64,000 bases of DNA. Origin: an uncultured Proteiniphilum sp. (GTDB lineage: Bacteria; Bacteroidota; Bacteroidia; Bacteroidales; Dysgonomonadaceae). The position numbers and the translations under genes are program-made. This document shows positions 1-15,750 of this stretch, piece by piece (position 1 is the first letter of the stretch; every line of letters begins with the position of its first letter). Location of the stretch: positions 1-64,000 of the forward strand of contig CAKMJT010000010.1 of the NCBI GenBank assembly GCA_927407015.1, given 5' to 3'. The notes beneath the pieces were generated by a model that had not been told where the DNA came from, made no database searches, and was given only the letters and a program-made list of their open reading frames with translations.

Positions 1-46
1 GGCGTTCCAATATCGCCAGGAATTCTTCTTTGCTTACAGGCTTCAT
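1..46 (-). CDS. Start of a probable IS66 accessory (TnpA-like) protein, partial
   Basis: An ATG at 44-46 opens a frame reading MKPVSKEEFLAILER before it leaves the window. The 'EEFLAILE' start resembles the small first ORF of IS66-type elements in Bacteroidota, which usually begin with a short helix followed by a helix-turn-helix. Only 15 residues are available, so the assignment rests mainly on the neighbouring terminal repeat. It could equally be another small gene that happens to lie beside a broken cas3. Confidence 0.35.
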   Translation of the reverse strand, partial: MKPVSKEEFLAILER

Positions 47-118
47 AAAAATTACGTTTGCCGGCAAAGATCAACAAAAAACTCTTGCCCTAAAAGGGGT
101 ATTTTATCGGGGGCTTAC
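1..118 (-). mobile_element. Right end of an IS66-family-like insertion sequence (partial)
   Basis: On the minus strand the sequence entering from position 118 begins GTAAGCCCCC, which resembles the GTAAGC-type terminal inverted repeat of IS66 elements. About 72 bases further in, a short reading frame starts. The host cas3 frame changes from recognisable Cas3 sequence to meaningless residues exactly at this point. The junction, leader spacing and small N-terminal ORF are seen directly. The IS66 assignment is an inference, because the rest of the element, its other end and any 8-bp target duplication lie outside the window. Confidence 0.55.
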
Positions 119-1565
119 AATAGTTTAACGGTAACAATGAATAAGGTACGAAATGCTGTTTAAAGAAATTCAATGCATCAAAATTATCCTTCGGTAATTC
201 AAAATTTGGCTGTGTTGCTGTTGATATGATTGCATAGCTTCCAAATTTCCCACAGAAACGGTTCAAGTATGCAACAAAAAAACCATATAGGCGGGGTGGC
301 AATGCTTGAATTTCATCCAATAAGAAAATGCAATTTGAAAAGTTGGGAAGCTTAAGTAATTCGGCATTCCGATTACTCAATAGGGTTTCAAAAAAACGGA
401 CAAATGTTGTGATGATGAAAGGGTAGGCAAATGTATTATCTCTGAATTCAAGGATACTTGCTTCCTGTATCATTTCTTCTGATGGATTATCATCCAATTC
501 TTCCTGGATTTTCTCGAATCTGTGATTTTCCGATTTTGAATCAATTCGTTGAATGAAATCTTCATGACCTTTAAATATCTTCAGAACTTCGGTTTCCACT
601 TGTTCCGTAATCGAAAGAAACGGTAATGCGTAAATAATTCGTTTGTCACCTTTGATTTTTATTATTTCAGAAGCCAAAGAAAGAAGCATTAATGTTTTTC
701 CAGAACCTGTTGGAGCTGTAAGTTCAAAAACTTGTTTGTTATGTTTCAATCCTTCGTTGATATTCCTTATCGCATTTCCCCTGATTTCAGTTCTCAATTT
801 ATTGAGCTCTGTATCCTGCTTAAGTTGACTCAAATAGGAGTCTAATTGTAAACCAAAACAGGAAGAAAATGATTGAACAGCTGCTTTTTGATCTTCGATA
901 ATGTTCTCAATATTCCCGGCATCAGCTTTATCTGCATAGAGCACACTTGCAAAGGTAAATTGATAATCAATGAAGAAATCCAATGCAGATTTATTCTTGT
1001 CTCCGTTGAAAATAAACTTCTCCGTATAGCCTTGCTTTATTCTGGGATTCAATAAAAGTTCCCGAAAATCATCAATCTGAATAAAATGATTAACAAAATT
1101 ATAAAATGGTAACTCTTGCTCTTTCTCCAAAAATTTAAACAACGCATAATTTTCATCCTTCGATAAAATACTTGCACCTGAACCATTGTAGTCGGCAGGT
1201 GAAAAGTCGGGTAAATTGCCGTGGTGCTTTGCTATAATCACAGACAAGGCAATAATATCATTTTGTGTTAATTCGTTTACATCAAGGAATTGTTTAAGAG
1301 CATCCGCATTTTTCTTATTGCAACAAAAAACACAAAAGAAAACATAAGCTGACAAATAGGCATGATTAGCATATCCACAAGCAGCTTTTTGTGTGTCAAG
1401 TTTATCCTGAAAATTCGGATTTATTTTTCCCAAATCATGAAAAATAGCTACCAACTCCGCAAAACGGGAGTTGGTCAGCTTTTTCGTATTATCTATCACG
1501 CCCTGAACATGCTTTAACAACAACTTATCAGGGTGTGATTTTAGCAATGTTATATCAGACACCAT
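90..1565 (-). pseudogene. cas3: CRISPR-associated nuclease/helicase Cas3, truncated by insertion
   Basis: Cas3 is recruited by Cascade to unwind and degrade the target strand. The HD nuclease residues are present: H43-D44 (FHDLGK), H68, and H114-H115. Helicase domain 1 is also present, with Walker A TAPTGSGKT at 283-291, the DEAD-type box DEIQ at 417-420 and motif III STATQP at 448-453. The recognisable protein ends at about N481-Y482. The last nine residues (from C483) come from the inserted element and end in a stop. Intact Cas3 proteins of this type are typically well over 700 residues, so the whole second RecA-like domain (motifs IV-VI) is missing here. The start overlaps the end of cas5 by 16 bases. 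Unless the product works without helicase domain 2, interference should be impaired. Confidence 0.85.
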
Positions 1566-2260
1566 TTTTCAGTACCTTTTGATGAATGATATTCGAAGTA
1601 CACTCCTTCAACTTGAATTGAATGAGGGTAATCAGGATAAATCACATTTTTATACTTTTCCGGAAGATTCCAAAAATCATCTGTTTGGTAGGTTGGTATC
1701 CTGTCAAAACCAACTCGAAAACCACCTATAATATCCTTTGGAGAATGTTCTCCAGAAAGCACAAAGCCTTTAGTTTCAAACATTCCGTTTTCCATTGCGG
1801 AAAAATCGCCCTCCGATTCCCATTTCAAATCTGCAGGACAATTATGCCACCCCAAAACAGGTGGATAAACTGCCTTTTCTTCTTTAATTGAAAGTTGAAA
1901 TTCATCAAAAATGGAAATAGACCTTTCATTATTCAATGCAATCGAAACCAAGAATTTGGGGTCCTTTAAAAACTCAAAATACTTTGGAGTACCATCAGCT
2001 GTTGGGTTAATTGCCGTTCTGCTGGTAAAGCCCCACGAAATCTTCTTAACCGGGCTGAGAAGTCGAACTCCATAAAGCAAATCCTCGGAGAGTTGCGGAA
2101 ATTCCCTTTTCATATCTTCACGTTCAATACCCAAAACGGCTCCAATTAGTCCAATCAGTGCTGTTTTGGTTATCAAATCGTGAGATAACGGATTGTTATT
2201 TGTTTCCGGCTTTTTGAAATGCCCCCAATTACCTTCTATGATAAGTTGGAAACCTTTCAT
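1550..2260 (-). CDS. cas5: CRISPR-associated protein Cas5 (type I-B)
   Basis: This 236-residue RAMP-superfamily protein should bind the 5' handle of crRNA at the base of the Cascade backbone. Its N-terminal beta strand and 'GNWGHFKKPET' segment, followed by 'LSHDLITKTALIGLIGAVLG' (about residues 25-44), fit the Cas5 family pattern. A glycine-containing loop 'GGFRVGFDRIP' lies near residue 180. Its ATG overlaps the cas7 stop in an ATGA arrangement, and its end overlaps cas3, so the genes are translationally coupled. It is intact and of usual length. The specific I-B assignment comes from the operon partners. Confidence 0.88.
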   Translation of the reverse strand: MKGFQLIIEGNWGHFKKPETNNNPLSHDLITKTALIGLIGAVLGIEREDMKREFPQLSEDLLYGVRLLSPVKKISWGFTSRTAINPTADGTPKYFEFLKDPKFLVSIALNNERSISIFDEFQLSIKEEKAVYPPVLGWHNCPADLKWESEGDFSAMENGMFETKGFVLSGEHSPKDIIGGFRVGFDRIPTYQTDDFWNLPEKYKNVIYPDYPHSIQVEGVYFEYHSSKGTEKWCLI

Positions 2261-3231
2261 TTTGATTCAGTATTATTTTCCGTAAAATGGATTTCTTCAA
2301 ATTTATTCTTACCAGAGAATATTGTTTTTATAGATTCTATTTCTGTGTAATATTTAATTTTTGAGATTTTTTCTGTATCTGCAACTGATAATAACTTTGA
2401 AAAATCAAACTCATAGTCATCCATGCTTCGCAGTTGCTCTCCCTTTTTATCTTCTTTTGGTTTCAATTCAATCAAACGGTCAACTCCATAAATCTTTTTG
2501 TTGTTTTGGGAATATTCAATTTCAAGTAAAAGAATTGAATTTTGACCAACTTTACTTCGTGAATGCGAACTTCCATCACCGCTTGTTCCATACCAAAGTC
2601 CTTCATACATCAGCTTCAAATCTTCTTCCGTCATTCCTGTTTTTTCAGCAACTTTAGGATTAACCCAACCGTGAATCTGTACCAAAGAATAGGGAACTAA
2701 AGTTGTGGTGCCAATTGCTCCCTGTTTATTTTCAGCACTTGATGTAAACACGGAAGTGTTCTGATGCATTCGAAGAATAACTTCATTAAATGAAGGATTC
2801 AATAACGAAAATTGTACAGGACCTGTAAGATTTACCGCATCACCTTTCCCTGTTGCAATGCCACCAAAAAGTTTTACGTCAATACATTTTCCCATAACAA
2901 AAAGAGCAGGACTGAATTGCTTCTTTTGCTCTTTGGATAGTTTCTCTTCAGCTTCAATTTCAGCCTTGAATTTAATCTGAAGCGATTTAATTCTTGAAGC
3001 GGAGCCAGATTCATTTCCTTCTGCATAACTTTTATCATTAACAACATAAATGTCGTGACCTCTCTCATTGAGATAGTCTCTCACATATCTTTTCATACGA
3101 ACATCGCTTACCAAAATCTTTTTGGTTTCCTCATCGTAGCGTTGTTCACCGGTAAAAGGATCCCCATTTGGAATGTTATACGACGTTTCGTACAAAAATA
3201 AAATTTCTGATTTTTTTAATTGATTCGCCAT
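2257..3231 (-). CDS. cas7: CRISPR-associated protein Cas7 (Csh2-type), Cascade backbone
   Basis: A 324-residue Cas7 subunit that polymerises along the crRNA. The chosen start (MANQLKKSEILFLYETSYN) gives the typical Csh2/Cas7 opening: a beta strand leading into 'NIPNGDPFTGEQRYDEETKKI' and then 'VSDVRMKRYVRDYL'. A longer frame extends 37 codons upstream but would overlap cas8, while this start leaves 13 bases after the cas8 stop. The middle contains 'LFGGIATGKG' and 'LTGPVQFS', both common in this family. It is intact, AT-rich like the rest of the operon, and overlaps cas5 by four bases. Confidence 0.9.
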   Translation of the reverse strand: MANQLKKSEILFLYETSYNIPNGDPFTGEQRYDEETKKILVSDVRMKRYVRDYLNERGHDIYVVNDKSYAEGNESGSASRIKSLQIKFKAEIEAEEKLSKEQKKQFSPALFVMGKCIDVKLFGGIATGKGDAVNLTGPVQFSLLNPSFNEVILRMHQNTSVFTSSAENKQGAIGTTTLVPYSLVQIHGWVNPKVAEKTGMTEEDLKLMYEGLWYGTSGDGSSHSRSKVGQNSILLLEIEYSQNNKKIYGVDRLIELKPKEDKKGEQLRSMDDYEFDFSKLLSVADTEKISKIKYYTEIESIKTIFSGKNKFEEIHFTENNTESK

Positions 3232-3244
3232 TGTCGTAAGTTTT

Positions 3245-5254
3245 TTAAAGTTGTTGATTTTTAGTAGTATTTGTTTCATCGGAGATTGCTCCCCCCTTCT
3301 TGGGTATGGGTCTGAAATAGTTTTCAAAAAAACCAAAAGCACATTCCTCTGTATCGTACCTCGATTTGAATTCTTTTAACTTTTGTGCTAAATCGTACGA
3401 CGTTTGGAAGGTAAATTTTGCCTTATCGTGCATGATCAGTTTTTGTTCGATTTCATTTTTAAGTTTAATGAAATCGGACAGAGTTCCAATTCTTCGGGTA
3501 AGGTTACCCACATAATTCTTTTCAAAAGAATTAATTTCCTGACTCAGGTTCTTTGCCATCCCTCCCAACAAGAACCCGATTTGATAACTTTCTGATGATG
3601 TAATGTCCATAAATCTATCGTTTTTAGTGTTTTGCATTTTTAAAAGAAACTTTAAATCGTACTTTAAGAAATTAAACATGGAATCACCAGCCCTTATACT
3701 GTATTCTACATTTTGTATGAAAGCTGGTAAAAGTGTATCGTCTTGATAATAATTTTCAGTATAAATTAAGGGTAATACTTTCAAAAGATGTGATTGATAC
3801 TTAGGATTAGGCTTAAATGAAACTTTACCTGTTTTTGAATCAAATTGTGGGTTACCCAAAATCTCCCTAAAAGAATCATTGATATTTATCGGGAATAGCT
3901 CTTTTTCAGTTTTATAGAAGCTCTTTCGTTCTTCACTAATTTCTTGAGATATATGACGTATTCTTTCCCGTATCAAGCGGAGGTTACTCTTTTCGATACC
4001 AGATAATTCTATTAAATCAAAATCCGGAGATGATAAGCCACCTTTTTTACAAAAAATCAAATCAAAAGATGTAATATTCTTTTCATCATCTGAAAAAAAA
4101 TCAAAAATTGGATCAACCAACTTCTTATTGCTATCCTTATTTTTTGCAAGGATCCTTGCTTCATCCCGTTTCTCCAAAAAATCATCGTAATCTTTTGCAG
4201 TAAGATATTCTCCACGTGGTAAAATGATAAGCTTCATATTTGTGCCTGAAATTAGTTTTCCTTTACTCGAATAATCGATGGCATAAAACAAATCTTGCAA
4301 ACTGTCTGTTTGGAAATTTCTTGACTTATACTTATTTGAATCATCAAAAGAAGGAAATTGAATGTCGTTTTTTTTATCGCCGGAACAGAGCGTTTTATAT
4401 AATGTCTTCTTAAGAACTAAACCATTAGACGTATTATCTACGAATTCAGAAAGAATTTTAGTGTTCAATAGTTCCATAGCTTTTTCATACTTATACCAAT
4501 GCTTTTTTTCTGGGAAATCAAAATGGATAAACAAGGATGAGTTATTTAAATCAAAAATTTTACTTTTTTGGGTTTCATTACATTCAGATAATTCAGAAGG
4601 TAATCCGACTTTCTCTAAATTTGATTTAGACGTATTTTTAAATATTTGATCAATAGTCCTTAAATACAATTCTTCTTCGTTGTCTAGTAAACTTACAAGT
4701 GGTGTGGAATCAGATCTAATTTCTAAAAAAATTGAAATTGCCGGGATATATTTTAAAATCCTTTCGACTTTTTGAATGTTCTTTTCTAACTGTTCATGAA
4801 ATTGCTGAATGACTGATAGTGAATCCACATTATTTTTTATAATGTCATTATAACCACTCATTCCACGGAAAAATGAGCTTGGTCTATATGCAGGATTTGG
4901 ATGGTTTGGATTCGCCAATCTATAATAGCCTCCTTCACCACAATCAATAGAACCATCCCTTTTTATACTCGATTTCTTCTCAAAAAAGATGTCACCAAAA
5001 ACATATTTTACTAATCCGTCACTATCTGAAGTTTTAAATTTCAAATAGTATAGAGTATCTCTTTGGTTTTCCGGTGTAAATATCATTCCTTCCCAATCGA
5101 ATGAAAAATTTTCTTTTAAAGGAATGGTAATACATATCGGCCATTCATTAGTCCTTGGATCTCTTGGGCAAGGCTCCACATATTTAAAATATTTTAGACT
5201 ATTTTCCGAACTGCGAAGAACTTTGCCTATCTGAAGTACAGTCTCTAAACTCAT
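3245..5254 (-). CDS. cas8b: CRISPR-associated large subunit Cas8b (Csh1-type)
   Basis: A 669-residue protein in the position of the Cascade large subunit, which recognises the PAM and recruits Cas3. The assignment rests on operon position, size and family-like stretches: 'YRPSSFFRGMSGYN' near residue 125, and a helical C-terminal region with 'GFLLGGMAKNLSQEI' and 'NYVGNLTRRI' near residues 560-590. That C-terminal part is where Cas8b proteins carry their small-subunit-like helical bundle, which would explain why no separate cas11 gene is seen. The gene is very AT-rich (15 of 60 bases G or C at 4501-4560). I saw no interruption. The Csh1 subfamily assignment is less certain than the role. Confidence 0.8.
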   Translation of the reverse strand: MSLETVLQIGKVLRSSENSLKYFKYVEPCPRDPRTNEWPICITIPLKENFSFDWEGMIFTPENQRDTLYYLKFKTSDSDGLVKYVFGDIFFEKKSSIKRDGSIDCGEGGYYRLANPNHPNPAYRPSSFFRGMSGYNDIIKNNVDSLSVIQQFHEQLEKNIQKVERILKYIPAISIFLEIRSDSTPLVSLLDNEEELYLRTIDQIFKNTSKSNLEKVGLPSELSECNETQKSKIFDLNNSSLFIHFDFPEKKHWYKYEKAMELLNTKILSEFVDNTSNGLVLKKTLYKTLCSGDKKNDIQFPSFDDSNKYKSRNFQTDSLQDLFYAIDYSSKGKLISGTNMKLIILPRGEYLTAKDYDDFLEKRDEARILAKNKDSNKKLVDPIFDFFSDDEKNITSFDLIFCKKGGLSSPDFDLIELSGIEKSNLRLIRERIRHISQEISEERKSFYKTEKELFPININDSFREILGNPQFDSKTGKVSFKPNPKYQSHLLKVLPLIYTENYYQDDTLLPAFIQNVEYSIRAGDSMFNFLKYDLKFLLKMQNTKNDRFMDITSSESYQIGFLLGGMAKNLSQEINSFEKNYVGNLTRRIGTLSDFIKLKNEIEQKLIMHDKAKFTFQTSYDLAQKLKEFKSRYDTEECAFGFFENYFRPIPKKGGAISDETNTTKNQQL

Positions 5255-5465
5255 ACAATTCTCTTTTATATTAATTTTTTAATTCAAAACCGTAAAAAAT
5301 CCACATTAATCATTCATAAATCAAAAATTTACCGGTATAAGGCATCATCTAATACTTCTAATACTTCGAGCTTTGAATTTAATTTTTTGGTTTTTCTAAT
5401 TAATTGCAAAAATTGTTTTAAGGAATTAATCAAACAAATTTTGACTTTAAATCAACGATCTATGT
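5255..5465 (-). other. AT-rich spacer between cas6 and cas8b with a 9-bp tandem repeat
   Basis: These 211 bases separate cas6 from cas8b, in contrast to the overlapping genes downstream. They contain a perfect tandem duplication of TAATACTTC (5350-5358 and 5359-5367) and long A/T runs, but no reading frame, CRISPR-like repeat or clear terminator. The spacing suggests that cas8b-cas3 may have its own promoter. Confidence 0.5.
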
Positions 5466-6257
5466 TTAAATTTTAACTTTCTCAACACTAAGTTCAAGCC
5501 ACCCAAATCCGCTACTGCTCTTTTCACTCACGCCGGCATTCCAGATCATACGGTGTACTTCAACCGGAGCGGAAATCTCAAAATCAAACAAATTACCCAC
5601 AACTCTCGACTCTTCTTTGCTTCCGGGTTTTATTACAAAACCGGCTCGTTTAAAAGATGTGGTCAGACTCAGTTTTATTTGATCATCAGAAATCTTCACG
5701 CTATTGCGGGTATTGGTATATTTCTCATCCAGATGCTTGATTGCAAGCGAATGGAATCTTTCATCGTCGGGAGAGAGATATTGCGGATATTTGTCCTGTT
5801 CGGATTGATAACTGACCACCCAGGGAGTAACCAGATGATATTCCATGATTTCAGAGAAATGCGGTTCGGGTAATGCCTCTACCTGCGTCACGGCAAAGTC
5901 TATCCCGTTGAATTTGTCGCCCAGATAGAACTCTTGCCGCATAAACAACCCCTTGATAAAGTTTGATGCGGCTTCTGGTACATCAAACGATATCTGAAAC
6001 TTAATATCGTGCGCATCAATCTCGAAAAGTTTTTTTTCTTTCCAAAGCTTCGGCTTCCCAAAGTCCAGCGGAGAAAAACAAAACAGTTTATACAATTTGG
6101 ATGCATCCTTTCCATATCCTTTCTCATGAAGAAAGTGTGCAAAATCGTTATCTGCCTGCTTCAGTACTTTGTAAATCCACGCACTGATGTAGTACTGATA
6201 ATCCATGGGCAACATACGCTGCTTTGTTGTACGGTTTAACGAAAGCCTGAATCTCAT
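5466..6257 (-). CDS. cas6: CRISPR RNA endonuclease Cas6
   Basis: A 263-residue RAMP-fold endoribonuclease that would process pre-crRNA. The N-terminus 'MRFRLSLNRTT' followed by 'LPMDYQYYISAWIYKVL' (about residues 16-32) matches the opening of Cas6 proteins. The C-terminus has the diagnostic glycine-rich loop 'NAGVSEKSSSGFGWLEL' (about residues 241-257). A histidine at about residue 44 (HEKGY) is a possible catalytic residue, but I cannot confirm it by alignment. It is the first gene of the operon and the only one not tightly packed against its neighbour. Confidence 0.87.
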   Translation of the reverse strand: MRFRLSLNRTTKQRMLPMDYQYYISAWIYKVLKQADNDFAHFLHEKGYGKDASKLYKLFCFSPLDFGKPKLWKEKKLFEIDAHDIKFQISFDVPEAASNFIKGLFMRQEFYLGDKFNGIDFAVTQVEALPEPHFSEIMEYHLVTPWVVSYQSEQDKYPQYLSPDDERFHSLAIKHLDEKYTNTRNSVKISDDQIKLSLTTSFKRAGFVIKPGSKEESRVVGNLFDFEISAPVEVHRMIWNAGVSEKSSSGFGWLELSVEKVKI

Positions 6258-6639
6258 GACAACGGATCATTAAATGTCGAACAAAGAAAATAATGGAAAC
6301 TGACAAGTTGTGTCAAAAAATATTTGTTTTGTTTTATTATGTATTTTTAATTCATAATCATGTGATGGAGGATGCATAAAAAAGATGAGGAACCGATTCT
6401 TTTCAACAAAATTGAATAGCTTCTCAAGGCATAATTGTTGTAAATACGATTTGAAGATGGCTGCATCCGATTTAAACGCTAAAGTTATATTTTTTTTAAT
6501 AACAAAAAAATAAAATTTCAAAATTAACAACCAAAAAGTTAATATGCAAAAAATGACATCGGAAATTGAATTTGAAGTAAGATGTTCCCAACAAAAAAAC
6601 ACCTACCGAACTGAATCGATAAGTGTTTGATTTTCAATG
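6258..6639. other. AT-rich intergenic region between cas6 and tRNA-Pro
   Basis: About 380 bases, strongly A/T-rich, with no convincing gene. A 110-codon frame covering 6270-6602 on the minus strand is rich in F, K and I, lacks any family resemblance and is rejected. The region should hold the cas operon promoter: on the minus strand a TTGACA (6316 to 6311) is followed 18 bases later by TATTTT, and it overlaps a short palindrome. The AT-rich stretch marks the edge between the cas segment and the GC-richer core genome. Confidence 0.5.
6301..6315. promoter_or_regulatory. Palindrome TGACA-N5-TGTCA, possible operator of the cas operon
   Basis: The arms TGACA and TGTCA are perfect inverted repeats separated by AGTTG. 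The site lies about 45 bases upstream of the cas6 start and overlaps a possible -35-like TTGACA on the minus strand. A dyad at this position could be bound by a dimeric regulator. The pattern is short enough to be chance. Confidence 0.3.
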
Positions 6640-6714
6640 TCGGGGTGGCGGGATTCGAACTCGCGACCCCCTGCTCCCAAAGCAGGTGCGCTAACCGGAC
6701 TGCGCTACACCCCG
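6640..6714 (-). tRNA. tRNA-Pro (anticodon UGG)
   Basis: Read on the minus strand, the sequence folds into a standard cloverleaf. The acceptor stem is CGGGGTG paired with CACCCCG. The anticodon stem CCTGC/GCAGG closes the loop TTTGGGA with anticodon TGG. The T-arm contains GAGTTCGAATC. The discriminator base is A and CCA is not encoded. It lies between the cas island and aspS, and tRNA genes are common integration boundaries. Confidence 0.95.
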
Positions 6715-8800: not shown

Positions 8801-10129
8801 TCAAAGGATGTATCCTTCGCTGTAGGTCTTGTTGAACAGACGGTGACCCGCGGCCTCGGCATCTTCCACGAACTGCTCGGCTGCCGGATCCCACTTCACG
8901 GGACGGCCCAGGTCGTAGGCGATGTTACCCAGCGTGCACACCGTGCAGGAACGATGGCCTATCTCCACGGGTACCACCGGGTCGGTCTTTGTCTTCACCG
9001 CGTTGATGAAGTTCTCGAGATGCGGTATCTTGGTCTCATAGGCACCTTCTGCGGCTTCTGCCGCGGGAGGCAGCAGGCTGTCGTCGGAAGCGAGGAAATG
9101 TTCCCTCGAGATCTCGATCCATCCTTTGTCGCCCCAGAACTTCACTCCCTTGGTCTTCTGCTCGTTGAACGGCTCTTCGGTCATCACGGCTCCACTGGCA
9201 TACTTGTAGGTGAGGTATTTGGTGTCTTCGAAACCGGCGGGGATGATCTCCACCGGGCCGCTCTCGTCCATACCAAGTCCCCACTGGGCGATGTCGAACA
9301 TATGGGCACCCCAGTCGGTGGTGAAGCCGCCACCCAGCTCCTTGTACCAGCGCCAGCCGCCCCAGAACTGCTCGTTCTGCTCGGGATCGAGCGAGATGGG
9401 TGGGTTCAGCTGCGCATTGTAATGGACGAACTCCGACGGGCCCAGCCACAGCGGCCAGTTCAGGTCGGCAGGCACGGGCTCCTCAGGCAGGTCGTACGGT
9501 GTGGGTGGTGCACCCACATAGGCGTTCACCCGCTCGATCTTGCCGATCTTGCCCTCCTGCACCATCTTCACGGCATGCTGGAAGTTGGCATCGGAACGCT
9601 GCTGGCTGCCTACACCCAGGATGACGCCATTGTCGCGCACCGCCTTACGGAGCATCTGCCCCTCCTTGATGGTGAAGGTGAGCGGTTTTTCCAGGTAGAT
9701 GTTTTTCTTTGCCTTCGCTGCCTCGATGGCGATGAAGGCATGCCAGTGGTCCGGCGTGGCGATCACCACCACATCGATATCCTCACGGGCCAGCAGGTCC
9801 TTGTAGTTCTCGTACACCTCCACAGCCTCGGGCTGCTCCTCTCCGGCATACTTGTCGTTCACCCGCTTCAGGAAGCGCTCTCTCTTGATGCCATAGACAT
9901 CGCTGCCGGCCACCACACGCACACCGGCGATACCCAGGTAGCCTCTCAACAGGTACATGGACTGTTGTCCCAGCCCGATAAATCCCAGACGGAGGATGCC
10001 GTCATCTGCCTTTGCAGCTCCACCCTTGTTTTGGGTACACGATGCGAGAAACTGCGGGAACATGGCCACGCCTACCGCTCCTACGGCGGCTGTCTTGAAA
10101 AACTTTCTTCTTGTTAGTTGATTACTCAT
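8801..10129 (-). CDS. Gfo/Idh/MocA-family oxidoreductase, Tat-exported
   Basis: A 442-residue NAD(P)-dependent oxidoreductase of the sugar/inositol dehydrogenase superfamily. The N-terminus carries a twin-arginine signal (TRRKFFK, R7-R8), a hydrophobic stretch and a lipobox-like LASC with Cys at 31, so it is probably exported by Tat and possibly lipidated. The nucleotide-binding loop GFIGLG is at 49-54 and the family motif EKP at 147-149. Such proteins in Bacteroidota often act on sugars or glycosides in the periplasm. The substrate cannot be told from sequence. It appears monocistronic, with a TATATTTG -7 element 51 bases upstream of its start. Confidence 0.88.
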   Translation of the reverse strand: MSNQLTRRKFFKTAAVGAVGVAMFPQFLASCTQNKGGAAKADDGILRLGFIGLGQQSMYLLRGYLGIAGVRVVAGSDVYGIKRERFLKRVNDKYAGEEQPEAVEVYENYKDLLAREDIDVVVIATPDHWHAFIAIEAAKAKKNIYLEKPLTFTIKEGQMLRKAVRDNGVILGVGSQQRSDANFQHAVKMVQEGKIGKIERVNAYVGAPPTPYDLPEEPVPADLNWPLWLGPSEFVHYNAQLNPPISLDPEQNEQFWGGWRWYKELGGGFTTDWGAHMFDIAQWGLGMDESGPVEIIPAGFEDTKYLTYKYASGAVMTEEPFNEQKTKGVKFWGDKGWIEISREHFLASDDSLLPPAAEAAEGAYETKIPHLENFINAVKTKTDPVVPVEIGHRSCTVCTLGNIAYDLGRPVKWDPAAEQFVEDAEAAGHRLFNKTYSEGYIL

Positions 10130-10179
10130 GACTTTAGATAATATTGATAAGAAAATAATGGTTCGTTCCTGACTGACTG

Positions 10180-10187
10180 CAAATATA
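10180..10187 (-). promoter_or_regulatory. Promoter -7 element (TATATTTG) of the Gfo/Idh/MocA gene
   Basis: On the minus strand TATATTTG fits TAnnTTTG and is placed 51 bases upstream of the start codon. The -33 element is not clear. Confidence 0.5.
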
Positions 10188-10251
10188 TGCTTTTTTATCT
10201 TTTATCGGACTTCTCCGCAGCAAAATAACAAAAAAAAATAGCAGCGCCGTG

Positions 10252-10383
10252 TCAGACCGGCCCTTCCATCAGCAGGCAGAGGTAGTGGATGGGATCGCCC
10301 TGACGGACCACATAGTTGCCCTTGTCCAACGTGCGCACCCCGGTGACGGCACGATAAATCTGGTTAAAAAGAGGAAATGTCAC
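10252..10383 (-). pseudogene. N-terminal remnant of a Crp/Fnr-type regulator
   Basis: A 43-codon minus-strand frame from a GTG start contains 'GVRTLDKGNYVVRQGDPI', then 'HYLCLLMEGPV' and a stop. This matches the cyclic-nucleotide-binding fold of Crp/Fnr regulators ('...kGdyvfrqGdp...lyllleG.V'). The rest of the effector domain and the whole helix-turn-helix are absent, and the N-terminal part is shorter than usual. The resemblance is seen directly; that it is a decaying gene rather than a tiny protein is inferred. It sits head-to-head with the cupin gene, whose promoter lies in the gap. Confidence 0.5.
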
Positions 10384-10414
10384 CCATGTTACAATTTATA
10401 CTGTTTCCAAATAG

Positions 10415-10422
10415 TACATTTG
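10415..10422 (+). promoter_or_regulatory. Cupin gene promoter -7 element (TACATTTG)
   Basis: TACATTTG lies 28 bases upstream of the cupin ATG. It is identical to the aspS -7 element. Confidence 0.5.
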
Positions 10423-10450
10423 CAGACAATCCATTTAAAAAAAAACCATT

Positions 10451-10780
10451 ATGGCAACCTACGAAAAAGCAAAAGCGATCGCCCTGGAGGCATCCATCGA
10501 CTACACTTCCGGCGGGGTGATCAGTAAGCAGGTCACGAAGAACAAGGCTGGGAACATCACCCTCTTCTCCTTCGACAAGGATCAGGGACTCACGGAGCAC
10601 ACCGCCAACTATGACGCATTCGTGCAGATCCTCGACGGCGAGGCGGAGATACTGATCGACGGCATCGCCCACCAGCTGGTGGCAGGCGACTGCATCATCA
10701 TGCCGGCCAACATCCCGCATGCACTCAGGGCCACTGAGCGTTTCAAGATGCTGCTGACCATGATCAGGGGAGAAGAATAA
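10451..10780 (+). CDS. Small single-domain cupin protein
   Basis: A 109-residue protein forming one cupin beta barrel. Cupin motif 1 is 'LTEHTANYDAFVQILDGEAEI' (about residues 47-67) and motif 2 is 'LVAGDCIIMPANIPHAL' (about 75-91), with His residues in both that could bind a metal. The usual second His of motif 1 appears to be replaced by Asp (YDAF). The function is unknown: proteins of this size can be small isomerases, dioxygenase-like enzymes or stress proteins. It stands alone between a Crp/Fnr remnant and a terminator. A short in-frame ATG start just after it (10802) leads only into the terminator hairpin. Confidence 0.85.
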   Translation: MATYEKAKAIALEASIDYTSGGVISKQVTKNKAGNITLFSFDKDQGLTEHTANYDAFVQILDGEAEILIDGIAHQLVAGDCIIMPANIPHALRATERFKMLLTMIRGEE

Positions 10781-10823
10781 ACCCATCAACCATAACCCAT
10801 TATGAGCGAAATCATCAAGAACG

Positions 10824-10852
10824 AAAAGAGACGGCTTACGGCCGTCTCTTTT
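10824..10852. terminator. Bidirectional intrinsic terminator
   Basis: AAAAGAGACGGC and GCCGTCTCTTTT form a 12-bp perfect stem around the loop TTACG. It serves the convergent cupin gene and mdh. Confidence 0.9.
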
Positions 10853-10874
10853 CTGTTAGGGAAGGATTGTTGTA

Positions 10875-11873
10875 TTACAGATTGGGGTTCACCGTGTTCC
10901 ACTGGTCGGTGGCAGGGATGATGCCCATGGCGATCACCTCGTCACGCAGTTTCACCAGGTGGCCGTAGCTCTGTTGCAGCTCGGCAATCTCGGCATCGGT
11001 ACCTTTCACCGCGCCAAAGGAGACACCGTTCTTGTCGAGGGTGGTCTCCATCGCCATCATGATATGCGCAAAGCCCTGGCTGTTCACATAGCAGCCGGCA
11101 GGCCAGCGGAAGGATTCACCACCCATGGCGGCACGAATCATCTCCACCGAGGTGTAGGCGGGACTCTGGAAAGAGGAGCGGCCGCGCAGCTTGATGATGG
11201 CGGCACCACCCTTGGTGACACGCACCTTCAGGTCAGCCCATGCTTCATTCGTCAGCTTGTCGGTGCCGATCAGGTCGGTCAGCGGCGTGCCGTCCACCTT
11301 AGCGGTAGAGGCGAAGACAGCCATCTGCTCACCGTGGCCGCCGTAGGTGCGGGTGCCGGTCACCTTGCTCTGCTCCACACCGAAGTGTTTCGCCAGCTCG
11401 CTCTGCAGACGGGTGCTGTCGAGGGCTGCCAGGGTGGTCACCTGTGACGGTTTCAGTCCCGAGTAGATCAGTGCCACCAGGCCGGTGATATCGGCGGGGT
11501 TGAAGATGATGGTCAGATGCTGCAGCTCCGGGCAGTAGGCTTTGATGTCCTTACCCAGCTGGGCGGCGATCTCGGCGTTGCCCTTCAGCAGGTCCTCGCG
11601 TGTCATCCCGTCCTTGCGGGGTGCACCCCCGGAGGAGATCATGTATTTTGTTCCTGTGAAGGCTTCTTTCACGTCGGTGGAGAAGGTGAAGTTGATGCCG
11701 TCGAAACCGCAATGGCGCATCTCTTCCACTACCCCTTCAAGACCTTGGGCAAACGGGTCGTACAGACAGATGTTGGGTGTTAAACGCATCATGGCAGCCG
11801 TCTGCGCCATGTTGGAGCCAATCATGCCGGCAGCTCCTACAATTGTTAATTTGTCGTTCGTTAAAAAGCTCAT
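10875..11873 (-). CDS. mdh: Malate dehydrogenase
   Basis: A 332-residue NAD-dependent dehydrogenase of the lactate/malate dehydrogenase family that interconverts malate and oxaloacetate. The Rossmann loop 'TIVGAAGMIGS' spans 10-20, with Asp39 at the end of the second strand. The mobile-loop region 'APRKDGMTRED' (84-94) carries the substrate-binding arginines. 'NPADIT' is at 125-130 and the catalytic His is H180 in 'YGGHGEQ'. In this Bacteroidales clade it would work in the reductive (fumarate/succinate) branch of fermentation. It is monocistronic, with a TACATTTG promoter element. Confidence 0.93.
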   Translation of the reverse strand: MSFLTNDKLTIVGAAGMIGSNMAQTAAMMRLTPNICLYDPFAQGLEGVVEEMRHCGFDGINFTFSTDVKEAFTGTKYMISSGGAPRKDGMTREDLLKGNAEIAAQLGKDIKAYCPELQHLTIIFNPADITGLVALIYSGLKPSQVTTLAALDSTRLQSELAKHFGVEQSKVTGTRTYGGHGEQMAVFASTAKVDGTPLTDLIGTDKLTNEAWADLKVRVTKGGAAIIKLRGRSSFQSPAYTSVEMIRAAMGGESFRWPAGCYVNSQGFAHIMMAMETTLDKNGVSFGAVKGTDAEIAELQQSYGHLVKLRDEVIAMGIIPATDQWNTVNPNL

Positions 11874-11931
11874 AGTTAGTCGTATTTTGAATGTTGATGA
11901 TCCTTCTTACACAGGTGATTTTTTCGGACGT

Positions 11932-11939
11932 CAAATGTA
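11932..11939 (-). promoter_or_regulatory. mdh promoter -7 element (TACATTTG)
   Basis: On the minus strand TACATTTG lies 58 bases upstream of the mdh start. It is the same octamer as at aspS and the cupin gene. Confidence 0.5.
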
Positions 11940-11997
11940 CAAAAAGTTATCGTAAACAGCCCCATGCCAAATGATAATAAACGCTAAAGATGACTTT

Positions 11998-14199
11998 TTA
12001 CAGGAGGCTCCAGGCCACCGTCAGGCCGGCCATCACGATGGAGACCATACTCATCAGCTTCACCAGGATATTGAGCGACGGGCCGGAGGTGTCCTTGAAC
12101 GGGTCACCCACCGTATCGCCTACCACGGCAGCCTTGTGCGCCTCACTGCCCTTGCCGCCCAGGTGGCCCTCCTCGATATATTTCTTCGCATTGTCCCAGG
12201 CACCGCCCGCGTTGGCCATGAAGATGGCCAGCACGAAGCCGGCACCCAGGCCGCCGGCCAGCAGGCCCATCACGCCGGAGACACCCAGCAGCAGACCTAC
12301 CAGGATGGGAACGGCAATGGCCAGCAGAGAAGGCAGCAGCATCTCCCGCTGTGCACCCTTGGTGGAGATCTCCACGCACCGCGCATAGTCGGGCGTACCC
12401 TCACCGGTGAGGATGCCGCTGATCTCACGGAACTGGCGGCGTACCTCCTCGACCATCTTCTGTGCAGCCCTGCCCACGGCGTTCATCGTCAGCCCGCAGA
12501 AGAGAAAGGCCATCATGGAGCCGAGGAAGATGCCGGCCAGCACCTTCGGGTTCATCAGCGTCACCTGGAAATAATTCATGAAATCGACAAAGCTGGCCCT
12601 GGCCACCTCCACAGTCTCCCCGTCGGCAAATACCAGGAGGTTGTGACCCAGGCGCAACATGCCGATACGGATCTCCTCCATGTAGGAGGCCATCAGCGCC
12701 AGGGCCGTGAGGGCTGCCGAGCCGATGGCAAAGCCCTTGCCGGTGGCGGCGGTGGTATTGCCCAGCGCATCGAGGGCATCGGTGCGCCTGCGCACCTCCG
12801 GTTCAAGGCCGCTCATCTCGGCGTTACCGCCCGCGTTATCGGCAATAGGTCCGTAAGCGTCGGTGGCCAGGGTGATGCCCAGCGTGGAGAGCATCCCCAC
12901 CGCGGCGATGGCGATGCCATAGAGGCCCATGCTCAGGTTCTCAGCCGTCATCATGTTGGCCACATCGAAGCGGATGGCAGCAAGATAAGAGATCAGGATG
13001 GCCAGCACGATGGTCACCACGGGGATCACCGTGGAGATAAATCCTGTCCCCATACCGGAGATGATGACGGTGGCGGGACCCGTTTTGGTGCTCTCGGCAA
13101 TCATCCGGGTAGGCTTGTAGGAGTGGGAAGTGAAATATTCGGTACCCTGCCCGATGATGATGCCGGCCAGCAATCCCGAGATCACGGAGAACGACAGTCC
13201 CACCCAGTTCTCAAAACCGAGGAGGTAGAGGATGCCAAAGGTGAAGACGGCGATCAGCAGCGCACTGGCGTTGACACCTCTGTTCAGTGCATCCATCAGC
13301 TCTTTCATCGTGGCCTGCTCCTTCGTCTTCACCAGGAAGATGCCGAAAATGGAGAGGAAGACACCGATGGCAGCGATGATCATCGGGGCAAACACCGCAT
13401 TCTGCTGCATCGAGGGATTCAGCACAAAAGCGGAGGCGCCCAGCGCCGCCGTGGAGAGGATCGAGCCGCAGTACGACTCATACAGGTCGGCACCCATGCC
13501 GGCCACATCGCCCACGTTATCACCCACGTTGTCGGCGATGGTAGCAGGATTGCGCGGGTCATCCTCGGGGATGCCCGCCTCTACCTTCCCCACCAGGTCG
13601 GCGCCCACATCGGCCGCCTTGGTATAGATACCTCCTCCCACACGGGCAAACAACGCCTGCGTGGAGGCACCCATGCCGAAGGTGAGCATGGTGGTGGTGA
13701 TCATGATCAGCTTGTGTCCTCCGTCGGCATTATCGATGAAGAAATCCAAAATAAGATACCAGGCCGAGATATCGAGCAGTGCCAGCCCTACAACCACCAG
13801 CCCCATCACGGCTCCCGAGCGGAAGGCTATCTGCAGCCCGCTGTTGAGGGAGCGTTGCACGGCGTTGGCCGTCCGCGCCGAGGCGTAGGTGGCCGTTTTC
13901 ATGCCGAAGAAGCCGGCCAGCCCCGAGAAGAAGCCTCCGGTGAGGAAGGCAAAGGGCACCCAGTTGTTCTGCAGGCCAAAGTAGGCCATCACGGCAAAGA
14001 GGAGTGCCAGGATGATAAAGACCACTGTCACCACCTTGTACTGTTGTCTCAGGTACGACATGGCACCTTCACGTACATAACGGGCGATGGTCTGCATCTT
14101 TTCAGTGCCTTCGCTCTCTCTCATCATTCTCTTAAAAAAATAGTAGGCGAATAGCAACGCAACTACTGAAGCAAGGGGTACAAGATAAAAGTAATTCAC
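11998..14199 (-). CDS. hppA: Membrane-bound ion-translocating pyrophosphatase (K+-dependent type)
   Basis: A multi-pass membrane pump that hydrolyses pyrophosphate and exports H+ and/or Na+. The substrate-site signature 'DVGADLVGKVE' followed by 'DDPRNPATIADNVGDNVGD' lies in roughly the second fifth of the protein. The segment 'GNTTAATGKG' has Ala where K+-independent enzymes carry Lys, which in this family marks K+-dependent enzymes. Bacteroidota members include Na+- and dual Na+/H+-pumping forms, so the ion here is uncertain. I chose a GTG giving 'VNYFYLVPLASVVALLF' at the start of the first membrane helix (733 residues). ATGs 42 and 63 bases upstream are alternatives. Confidence 0.93.
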   Translation of the reverse strand: MNYFYLVPLASVVALLFAYYFFKRMMRESEGTEKMQTIARYVREGAMSYLRQQYKVVTVVFIILALLFAVMAYFGLQNNWVPFAFLTGGFFSGLAGFFGMKTATYASARTANAVQRSLNSGLQIAFRSGAVMGLVVVGLALLDISAWYLILDFFIDNADGGHKLIMITTTMLTFGMGASTQALFARVGGGIYTKAADVGADLVGKVEAGIPEDDPRNPATIADNVGDNVGDVAGMGADLYESYCGSILSTAALGASAFVLNPSMQQNAVFAPMIIAAIGVFLSIFGIFLVKTKEQATMKELMDALNRGVNASALLIAVFTFGILYLLGFENWVGLSFSVISGLLAGIIIGQGTEYFTSHSYKPTRMIAESTKTGPATVIISGMGTGFISTVIPVVTIVLAILISYLAAIRFDVANMMTAENLSMGLYGIAIAAVGMLSTLGITLATDAYGPIADNAGGNAEMSGLEPEVRRRTDALDALGNTTAATGKGFAIGSAALTALALMASYMEEIRIGMLRLGHNLLVFADGETVEVARASFVDFMNYFQVTLMNPKVLAGIFLGSMMAFLFCGLTMNAVGRAAQKMVEEVRRQFREISGILTGEGTPDYARCVEISTKGAQREMLLPSLLAIAVPILVGLLLGVSGVMGLLAGGLGAGFVLAIFMANAGGAWDNAKKYIEEGHLGGKGSEAHKAAVVGDTVGDPFKDTSGPSLNILVKLMSMVSIVMAGLTVAWSLL

Positions 14200-14544
14200 G
14201 GGTCGATTGTTTATTGTTATTAATTGGGTCTGTGCGGCCATCCGTATTCGAACCGGCGCCACACTTTTCAGGGTACAAAGATGCAGAAATTATTTAAAAA
14301 AATAAAAACAAAGCAGAAAAAAGGAATAAAGAGGCAACTTGTCCCTTTTCTTTTTGATTATCCAAAAATATTCGTAATTTTGTAGGTTAAGCGGGATATT
14401 CCCAATTTAATTCGTGTATAATCAGGCATTTTGGATACGCAGGCAAGTGATCATGAACCGTTAATTTGTCAGTACAAGTCAATCTCAATACAGAAACACA
14501 TCATTGAAAAAAATCCACCTTTAGTCACTAAGTTTTTGAAAATC
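14200..14544. other. Divergent promoter region between hppA and the ROK regulator
   Basis: About 345 bases with no gene if the later ROK start is right. It holds a good plus-strand promoter at 14353-14382. On the minus strand a weaker CATCTTTG (14276-14283) could serve hppA. The plus transcript would have a leader of about 150 bases. I see no clear riboswitch or terminator in it. Confidence 0.5.
14353..14382 (+). promoter_or_regulatory. ROK gene promoter (TTTG-N18-TAATTTTG)
   Basis: TTTG at 14353-14356 and TAATTTTG at 14375-14382 are 18 bases apart, close to the Bacteroidota -33/-7 consensus. This is one of the best-formed promoters in the window. Confidence 0.65.
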
Positions 14545-15750
14545 ATGGTAAAAAACTTCTTTTTACAAAGCGATAAAAGTCCAAAAAATATTCAGATTAA
14601 AAAGGACATCATCTCCCATTTCATTACCACGGGCAACGATACAATTGCTGAGCTGGCCAGGGAACTTGATCTGAGCGTGCCTACCGTCACTAAATTCATT
14701 GCTGAGCTCACCGACCAGGGGCTGATAGCGGAATTCGGCAAGATCCACACCCCCGGGGGAAGACATCCAAATGTCTATGGCTTAAACCCTTCCTCTGCCT
14801 ATTTTGTGGGGGTGGACATGAGCCGCCATCATCTCAACATCGCCATCATGGATTTCACGGGCAACATCATCGACAACCAGATGGGCATCTCCTACACCTA
14901 CGAGAACACACCGGAATCGTTCGATCTGTTATGCAGCCACATCCAGAAATTCATTGACAAGACAGGGGATCTCAAACGGAAAATATTCAACATCAACCTG
15001 AACATCTCGGGCCGCGTGAACCCCGAATCGGGATACAGCTACAGCAGTTTCTATTTCAGTGAAAGACCTATCAGCGAGACACTGACGAAGAAGCTCAACT
15101 ACAACGTGGGCATCGATAACGACACGCGCGCCATGGCTTACGGCGAGTACATGAAGGGTGCGGTGGAAGGAGAACAGGATGTCATCTTTGTCAACGTGGG
15201 ATGGGGTCTCGGTATAGGCATCATCATCGACGGGAAACCCTACTACGGCAAATCGGGTTTCTCGGGCGAGTTCGGCCATTTCCCCATTTTCGAAAACGAG
15301 ATTCTCTGCCACTGCGGCAAAAAAGGCTGCCTCGAAACCGAAGCTTCCGGCCTGGCCATCCACCGCAAGGTGCTCGACCGGATCGGGAAAGGAGAGAGCA
15401 CACTGCTCACCGATATGGTGAAAGACATCAACAAACTCACGCTGACCGATATCATCAAGGCAACCAACCTGGAAGACCCGCTCTGCATCGAGATCGTGGA
15501 AGAGGTGGGCTACAAACTGGGAAAATACATCGCCGGGCTCATCAACATTTTCAACCCCGAGATGGTGATCATCGGCGGACAGGTGGCTGAGACCGAGGGC
15601 TTCATCATGCTGCCCATCCGCAGCTCCGTCAAGAAGTACTCGCTGAACCTGGTCAACAAAGACACCCAGATTATATCGTCGAAGCTGAAAAACAAGACCG
15701 GCATCATCGGCGCCTGCATGATCGCGAGAAGCAGGCTGTTTGCCGAGTAA
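14545..15750 (+). CDS. ROK-family transcriptional regulator / sugar-kinase-like protein
   Basis: A NagC/Mlc-like ROK protein of 401 residues. An N-terminal winged helix (about residues 18-70, with 'TIAELARELDLSVPTVTKFIAEL') precedes a sugar-kinase fold starting 'FVGVDMSRHHLNIAI'. The ROK zinc motif 'CHCGKKGCLE' lies near 255-264, preceded by 'GFSGEFGH', whose His completes the site. The presence of the HTH favours a sugar-responsive repressor over a plain glucokinase. A longer frame starts 38 codons upstream at 14431, but the chosen ATG gives the usual N-terminus. No sugar gene is adjacent, so the regulated pathway is unknown. Confidence 0.88.
   Translation: MVKNFFLQSDKSPKNIQIKKDIISHFITTGNDTIAELARELDLSVPTVTKFIAELTDQGLIAEFGKIHTPGGRHPNVYGLNPSSAYFVGVDMSRHHLNIAIMDFTGNIIDNQMGISYTYENTPESFDLLCSHIQKFIDKTGDLKRKIFNINLNISGRVNPESGYSYSSFYFSERPISETLTKKLNYNVGIDNDTRAMAYGEYMKGAVEGEQDVIFVNVGWGLGIGIIIDGKPYYGKSGFSGEFGHFPIFENEILCHCGKKGCLETEASGLAIHRKVLDRIGKGESTLLTDMVKDINKLTLTDIIKATNLEDPLCIEIVEEVGYKLGKYIAGLINIFNPEMVIIGGQVAETEGFIMLPIRSSVKKYSLNLVNKDTQIISSKLKNKTGIIGACMIARSRLFAE

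Follow-up and report, generated by a model that had tools for sequence, protein, structure and literature searches.

Natural transposition of insertion sequences (ISs) into cas genes is well represented among prokaryotic CRISPR loci: Sheng et al. 2023 (PMC10359306) describe 163 such events involving 20 IS families and 57 genera, and report MITEs in this role too. The main text of that study has no occurrence of IS66 or of the stem Bacteroid-, although IS66 may still be among its 20 families. Among the papers listed for IS66, cas3 and CRISPR together, none has a title on an IS66 in cas3, and among the matches listed for Proteiniphilum and CRISPR no title concerned such an insertion. For the loss of Cas3 itself, two type I systems offer a comparison. 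In the Haloferax I-B system, deletion of cas3 is reported to abolish interference, deletion of cas3 together with cas6b to permit promoter repression, and mutation of a Cas3 helicase motif to enhance repression (PMC4946936). In the P. aeruginosa I-E system, the block of Cas3 by AcrE1 is reported to make Cascade a repressor (PMC5727412).

The window discussed here is the whole 64,000-nucleotide stretch G000:C10:1-64000 from a congener of Proteiniphilum acetatigenes. Its first base is also the first base of the assembly contig, in an assembly estimated to be 94.7% complete. The window codes for a type I-B gene set, with PADLOC recognizing Cas8b1, Cas7b, Cas5b, Cas6b and Cas3b, and with additional matches to TIGR02590, TIGR01877 and TIGR01596. 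On this contig no cas4, cas1, cas2 or array adjoins cas3, and no CRISPR-like repeat was seen between positions 5300 and 8000 of the window. The features of the locus are as follows:

1..118, minus strand: left end of an IS66-family insertion sequence, 100% identical to C17:17401-17518 and C35:24-141, cut by the contig start
108..118, minus strand: outer tip of the terminal inverted repeat, GTAAGCCCCCG, the same tip as on the 2634-bp copies L077 and L079
1..46, minus strand: first 15 codons of tnpA (MKPVSKEEFLAILER), with a start near-identical to that of the 125-aa TnpA of L077
119..126, no strand: presumed 8-bp target duplication AATAGTTT, adjoining the IS tip, its partner copy not found
90..1565, minus strand: truncated cas3 frame of 491 aa, with 482 native residues (120-1565) plus nine junction/IS-encoded residues and TAG
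1550..2260, minus strand: cas5 (I-B), 236 aa, full length, 236/236 residues gap-free against L037 and L042, matching Cas5b models
2257..3231, minus strand: cas7 (Csh2, I-B), 324 aa, full length, 91.7% over 324/324 residues against L042, TIGR02590
3245..5254, minus strand: cas8b1, 669 aa, full length, 87.7% over 669/669 residues against L042, PADLOC Cas8b1 with E 3.8e-194
5466..6257, minus strand: cas6, 263 aa, TIGR01877 positions 7-200 of 200, Cas6b
6639..6714, minus strand: tRNA-Pro (ARAGORN), edge of the defence island and syntenic anchor

The cas3 frame follows its homologs closely and then stops abruptly. Residues 1-482 align without gaps to the Cas3 proteins of the related locus L037 (86.7%) and of P. 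acetatigenes (73.0%), whose full frames comprise 819 and 820 aa, respectively. Codon 483 is cut after its first base, at 119/118; the frame then continues for nine residues of junction or foreign origin (CKPPIKYPF) up to a TAG at 92-90. Reading away from cas3, the DNA from position 118 is GTAAGCCCCCG, and the homology to intact Cas3 ends exactly at this IS tip. The retained part displays the motifs HDLGK (residue 43), HH (114), TGSGKT (286), DEIQ (417) and STATQP (448). Compared to the L037 Cas3, it lacks STQLIEAGVDIDFP (575) and QSAGRCNR (602; in the longer stretch QSAGRCNRNGK), which we take to be the motifs of helicase domain 2, in line with the alignments to PDB 8zns that reach residue 457 in the truncated Cas3 and residue 627 in that of L037. 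The lost part of L037 also carries PF22590 (Cas3 C-terminal, 513-611) and the Pfam Helicase_C domain, the domain limits here being those of family and PDB sequence matches. Consistent with an incomplete Cas3 helicase, the Cas3 core model TIGR01587 aligns to the truncated protein over positions 4-168 of 358 with 61.8 bits, as against a cut-off of 102.45. The same model recovers 12 matches at E <= 10 in the own genome, with the truncated cas3 as the best (63.9 bits), a runner-up at 35 bits and none at the cut-off; thus, no intact Cas3 is seen elsewhere in G000. The initial annotation had described a Cas3 frame that is normal up to STATQP and turns into a terminal repeat at 118/119, and the alignment indeed stops there, with the remaining 118 bases belonging to the repeat. 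Its count of 482 Cas3 residues with the HD and ATP-binding domains but devoid of helicase domain 2 agrees with the motifs, the open frame itself being 491 aa, while the small ORF start that it noted past the junction proves to be tnpA, which runs for 15 codons leftwards from window position 46.

Across 120 genomes, including the own one, the Cas3 search yielded 11 with a match at E <= 1e-20. The open frame of cas3 is 809-838 aa long in nine of the ten relatives, and that of the tenth (G106; 587 aa) reaches its contig end. Hence, the truncation is peculiar to G000 among the genomes seen. Separately, the cas3 of Anaerophaga thermohalophila Valhall (L042 5517-6966) matches as two pieces that overlap near residue 205 and lie in different frames, indicating that it too is broken or misread, by a frame break or a sequencing error, albeit at another place. 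Against L037, synonymous versus non-synonymous codon differences amount to 86 versus 64 in the 482 codons of cas3 and 42 versus 25 in the 237 codons of cas5 (stop included), an excess that probably dates for the most part from before the insertion and gives no age for it.

The IS66 family is characterized by terminal inverted repeats starting with GTAA and, typically, by 8-bp target duplications. Since the contig starts within the element, the window includes no more than 118 bp of it, and this part has matches in 20 of 298 genomes (own included), with up to 91% identity to the IS copies of the relatives. Eight related copies were examined at length. Two of them, L077 and L079, have both ends and a length of 2634 bp, with the tips GTAAGCCCCCG on the left and GTAAGCACCCG on the right and perfect 8-bp duplications (TGTTTTTC and CCTTTAAC, respectively). 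The other six yielded no right end with matching flanks: two show candidate ends with unmatched flanks, and four show none in the stretch taken, one of these (L076) being cut by its contig end. The GTAA start is seen both in GTAAGCCCCCG at position 118 and at the ends of L077 and L079. The three L077 proteins of 125, 119 and 525 aa are IS66 TnpA, TnpB and TnpC: TnpA matches the NCBIfam IS66 TnpA model NF047593 and has no Pfam match, while TnpB and the transposase match IS66 models of Pfam and NCBIfam (PF05717, PF03050, NF033819, NF033517). The TnpA-TnpB-TnpC (DDE_Tnp_IS66) set is therefore present in the complete relative L077, whereas the cas3 copy is readable for 15 tnpA codons only. At the L079 site in G023, the flank resembles by eye a transposase-like gene also found on the own contig C35, and this IS66 copy may be nested in another mobile element.

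Within the own genome, the GTAAGCCCCCG tip occurs in five exact copies, including the one in cas3, as compared to none for the reversed control. The L077 element matches it with its left end at C10, C17 and C35, and with its right end at C2:1-139 (83%) and C36 (80%). The outward flanks ACCCCATT at the C35 left end and AATGGGGT at the C2 right end are reverse complements of each other, which indicates that C35 and C2 border one inserted copy with an 8-bp duplication. The IS66 assignment of the initial annotation is thereby borne out on two sides, by the 2634-bp relatives with TnpA, TnpB, TnpC and 8-bp duplications, and by this paired copy in the own genome. A right end with the AATAGTTT flank, as expected beyond the cas3 copy, was not found when the junction string was sought in the examined stretches of the own genome. 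The full IS66 transposase is likewise not assembled in this genome, the search with PF03050 giving three partial matches, all on C36, probably because the repeat copies were not assembled. Taking the junction and these copies together, we hold with considerable confidence that an IS66-family element inserted into the type I-B cas3 between the first two bases of codon 483, with its tnpA in the same direction as cas3; a whole element with its second end would then lie across the contig start.

Upstream of the insertion, cas5, cas7 and cas8b align with all their residues and without gaps to L042, at 88-92% identity. In the case of cas8b, this identifies a full-length short variant (669/669 residues), for which NCBIfam and Pfam gave no match. 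A partner of cas6 was not found in L042; cas6 matches TIGR01877 to its end, and it shows 30-37% identity to Cas6 in the five of 12 loci with a match. The earlier description of cas5 to cas6 as intact-looking is thus sustained, by full length against L042 for cas5, cas7 and cas8b and by the complete end of TIGR01877 for cas6. The stretch 3245-6257 of the window has a distinct pattern of conservation: relative to L037 and P. acetatigenes, Cas6 (32-37%) and Cas8 (45-47%) are poorly conserved but Cas3 and Cas5 retain 73-89%, and Cas8 proteins nearer to that of the window occur in L042 (88%) and L039 (72%). To judge from these sequence comparisons, a module swap within the operon likely underlies the divergence of Cas8 and Cas6.

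The genes expected beyond the contig start were sought in the rest of the assembly. With residues 481-819 of L037 as query and E up to 10, no match to the cas3 C-terminus was obtained in the own genome, in a search run without a positive-control genome; by BLASTP, this query aligns to the P. acetatigenes Cas3 at 58.5%, and the genome search with Cas3 recovered N-terminal halves down to 26% identity. Cas1 was not found in the own genome, although the same search finds it in four of four Cas3-bearing relatives. Of the adaptation genes, cas1 is hence missing from the assembly and is possibly in a gap. A candidate for the far side of such a gap is contig C33, which ends in a CRISPR array with seven identical 30-nt repeats at its very end. 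A scan of the own genome for repeat pairs gave seven matches, one forward and six reverse, the latter fitting the seven repeats of C33. The forward match is a further pair of GAATTGAAA words with array-like spacing, which could be due to chance or to a second small array.

In six of ten relatives (G008, G012, G015, G021, G023 and G034), a stretch homologous to C33 follows past tRNA-Pro and aspS with the same orientation; it is closest to the tRNA-Pro match in G015 (186 bases) and most distant in G023 (about 12 kb). No C33 match was found in the aspS neighbourhoods of the remaining four, i.e., G005 (a neighbourhood of only 9 kb), G013, G031 and G040. The PTE-family gene that lies beside the C33 array was found in one of 11 relatives, on a contig other than that of aspS, and is uninformative on placement. 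On the basis of this synteny, C33 most likely has its array end turned towards window position 1, and, with C33 thus placed across the gap, a lack of assembly rather than a deletion may explain the missing genes. By analogy with P. acetatigenes, in which cas4 and cas1 come after cas3 and the first repeat lies about 3.1 kb away from cas3 codon 482, the direction of the array repeats would be as expected if the leader and the adaptation genes sit in the gap. Near the array, C33 (L095) also codes at 9518-15596 for the type I restriction-modification proteins HsdR, HsdS and HsdM, pointing to a defence island at tRNA-Pro/aspS.

The same absences could instead have arisen if the insertion was followed by a deletion that removed everything from cas3 codon 483 through cas4, cas1, cas2 and part of the array, thereby joining the IS to the C33 array. 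Such a deletion would account for the missing cas3 C-terminus, for the lack of a Cas1 that the four Cas3-bearing relatives possess, and for the fact that the only right ends, at C2 and C36, have no cas3 flank. However, C33 breaks inside the array and not at an IS end, as would fit an unassembled or unbinned piece in between; the assembly is 94.7% complete by estimate; and a gap at a repeat requires no extra event. We accordingly consider this deletion unlikely, if still worth bearing in mind.

The cas3 copy need not be full length, given that a 139-bp derivative is present at C17:17401-17539 (L004), which includes the 118 bases of the window and bears an IS66 tip at each end. This mini-element is flanked on one side by a gene of the NAD-dependent epimerase family and on the other by a conjugation gene of the TraG family. 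The window covers only the part common to both forms, which leaves room for a miniature element of this kind in cas3. Against it, the C17 element shows no 8-bp duplication, and its second tip GTAAGCCCCCG resembles the left end rather than the C2 right end GTAAGCACCCG, and hence the element may represent a rearrangement instead of a mobile unit. Moreover, C17 and C50 have exactly 141 bases in common at their ends, from which the assembler word size was probably 141, and an element shorter than this presumed word would probably have been assembled through. A miniature derivative in cas3 is therefore rather improbable in our view. The first 141 bases of the window consist of 118 bases of IS and 23 of cas3, and the continuation of the contig past the 118/119 junction speaks against a common uninterrupted version of cas3.

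Returning to the insertion of an IS66-family element, its transposition into cas3 would halt translation nine residues past codon 482. The predicted product would retain the HD nuclease together with helicase domain 1 as far as motif III, and would be devoid of helicase domain 2. In SF2 motors without domain 2, ATP hydrolysis is not coupled to DNA translocation. Hence, Cas3 function is expected to be lost, and target degradation with it, such that interference has most likely been abolished. Any downstream cas4 and cas1, if still present, would be cut off from the operon promoter. On the other side of the insertion, cas6, cas8, cas7 and cas5 look intact, and thus crRNA processing and Cascade assembly could continue.

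By analogy with the Cas3-deficient systems, silencing is conceivable, and if the residual complex still bound its targets, it would represent a natural case of CRISPR repression. We nevertheless give little credence to the residual Cascade acting as a natural crRNA-guided repressor that silences instead of interfering. The intact-looking upstream cas genes and the C33 array with its seven identical repeats would serve such a function, and both the Haloferax I-B and Pseudomonas I-E Cascades are reported to repress once Cas3 is removed or inhibited (PMC4946936, PMC5727412). Yet, a recent null allele needs no new function. Further, save for one 14-base match, the spacers have no match outside the array in 780,637 bases, a sample made up of overlapping loci and relatives that covers only part of the own genome, and the first 23 bases of six of the seven spacers, the seventh being partial, have no exact match in viral contigs. 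The bolder proposal, in which the HD and helicase-domain-1 fragment is made, is recruited to Cascade and stabilizes target binding, giving rise to an evolved crRNA-guided repressor under selection, strikes us as highly implausible. Equally hard to credit is an assembly chimera with cas3 intact in the organism: the IS part is repetitive and lies at the extreme end of the contig, but the join falls exactly at the terminal-repeat tip, the contig extends 118 bases past it, and neither an intact cas3 nor its C-terminus was found in the assembly.

Set against the described systems, the locus agrees with the cases of Sheng et al. (PMC10359306), as reported there, in having a cas gene disrupted by an IS within a CRISPR locus, and differs in that its second IS end is unassembled. 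With IS66-family insertion sequences it shares relatives encoding TnpA, TnpB and TnpC, GTAAG tips and 8-bp duplications, while the cas3 copy is readable over its first 118 bp only. Like the Cas3-deficient repressors of Haloferax I-B and of P. aeruginosa I-E with AcrE1, it has kept the Cascade genes with Cas3 absent or inactive; as far as they are described, those repressors are engineered or inhibitor-driven and use promoter-directed guides, whereas for the locus described here repression is at most conceivable. An uninterrupted counterpart is the I-B system of P. acetatigenes DSM 18083 (NZ_KB905703.1, L038, with which G021/L080 is identical letter for letter over their overlap). It has the same cas6-cas8-cas7-cas5-cas3 order, with Cas3 at 73% and Cas5 at 74%, and far more divergent Cas8 (47%) and Cas6 (32%). 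Unlike in the window, its cas3 codes for 820 aa, and behind it come cas4 and cas1, as identified by Pfam, and an array. The case also illustrates how a CRISPR locus comes to appear incomplete in a draft genome when an insertion coincides with the edge of a contig. The locus is one more instance of an IS-inactivated cas gene, an ordinary and already documented kind of CRISPR inactivation, here through an IS66-family element and in a congener of P. acetatigenes.
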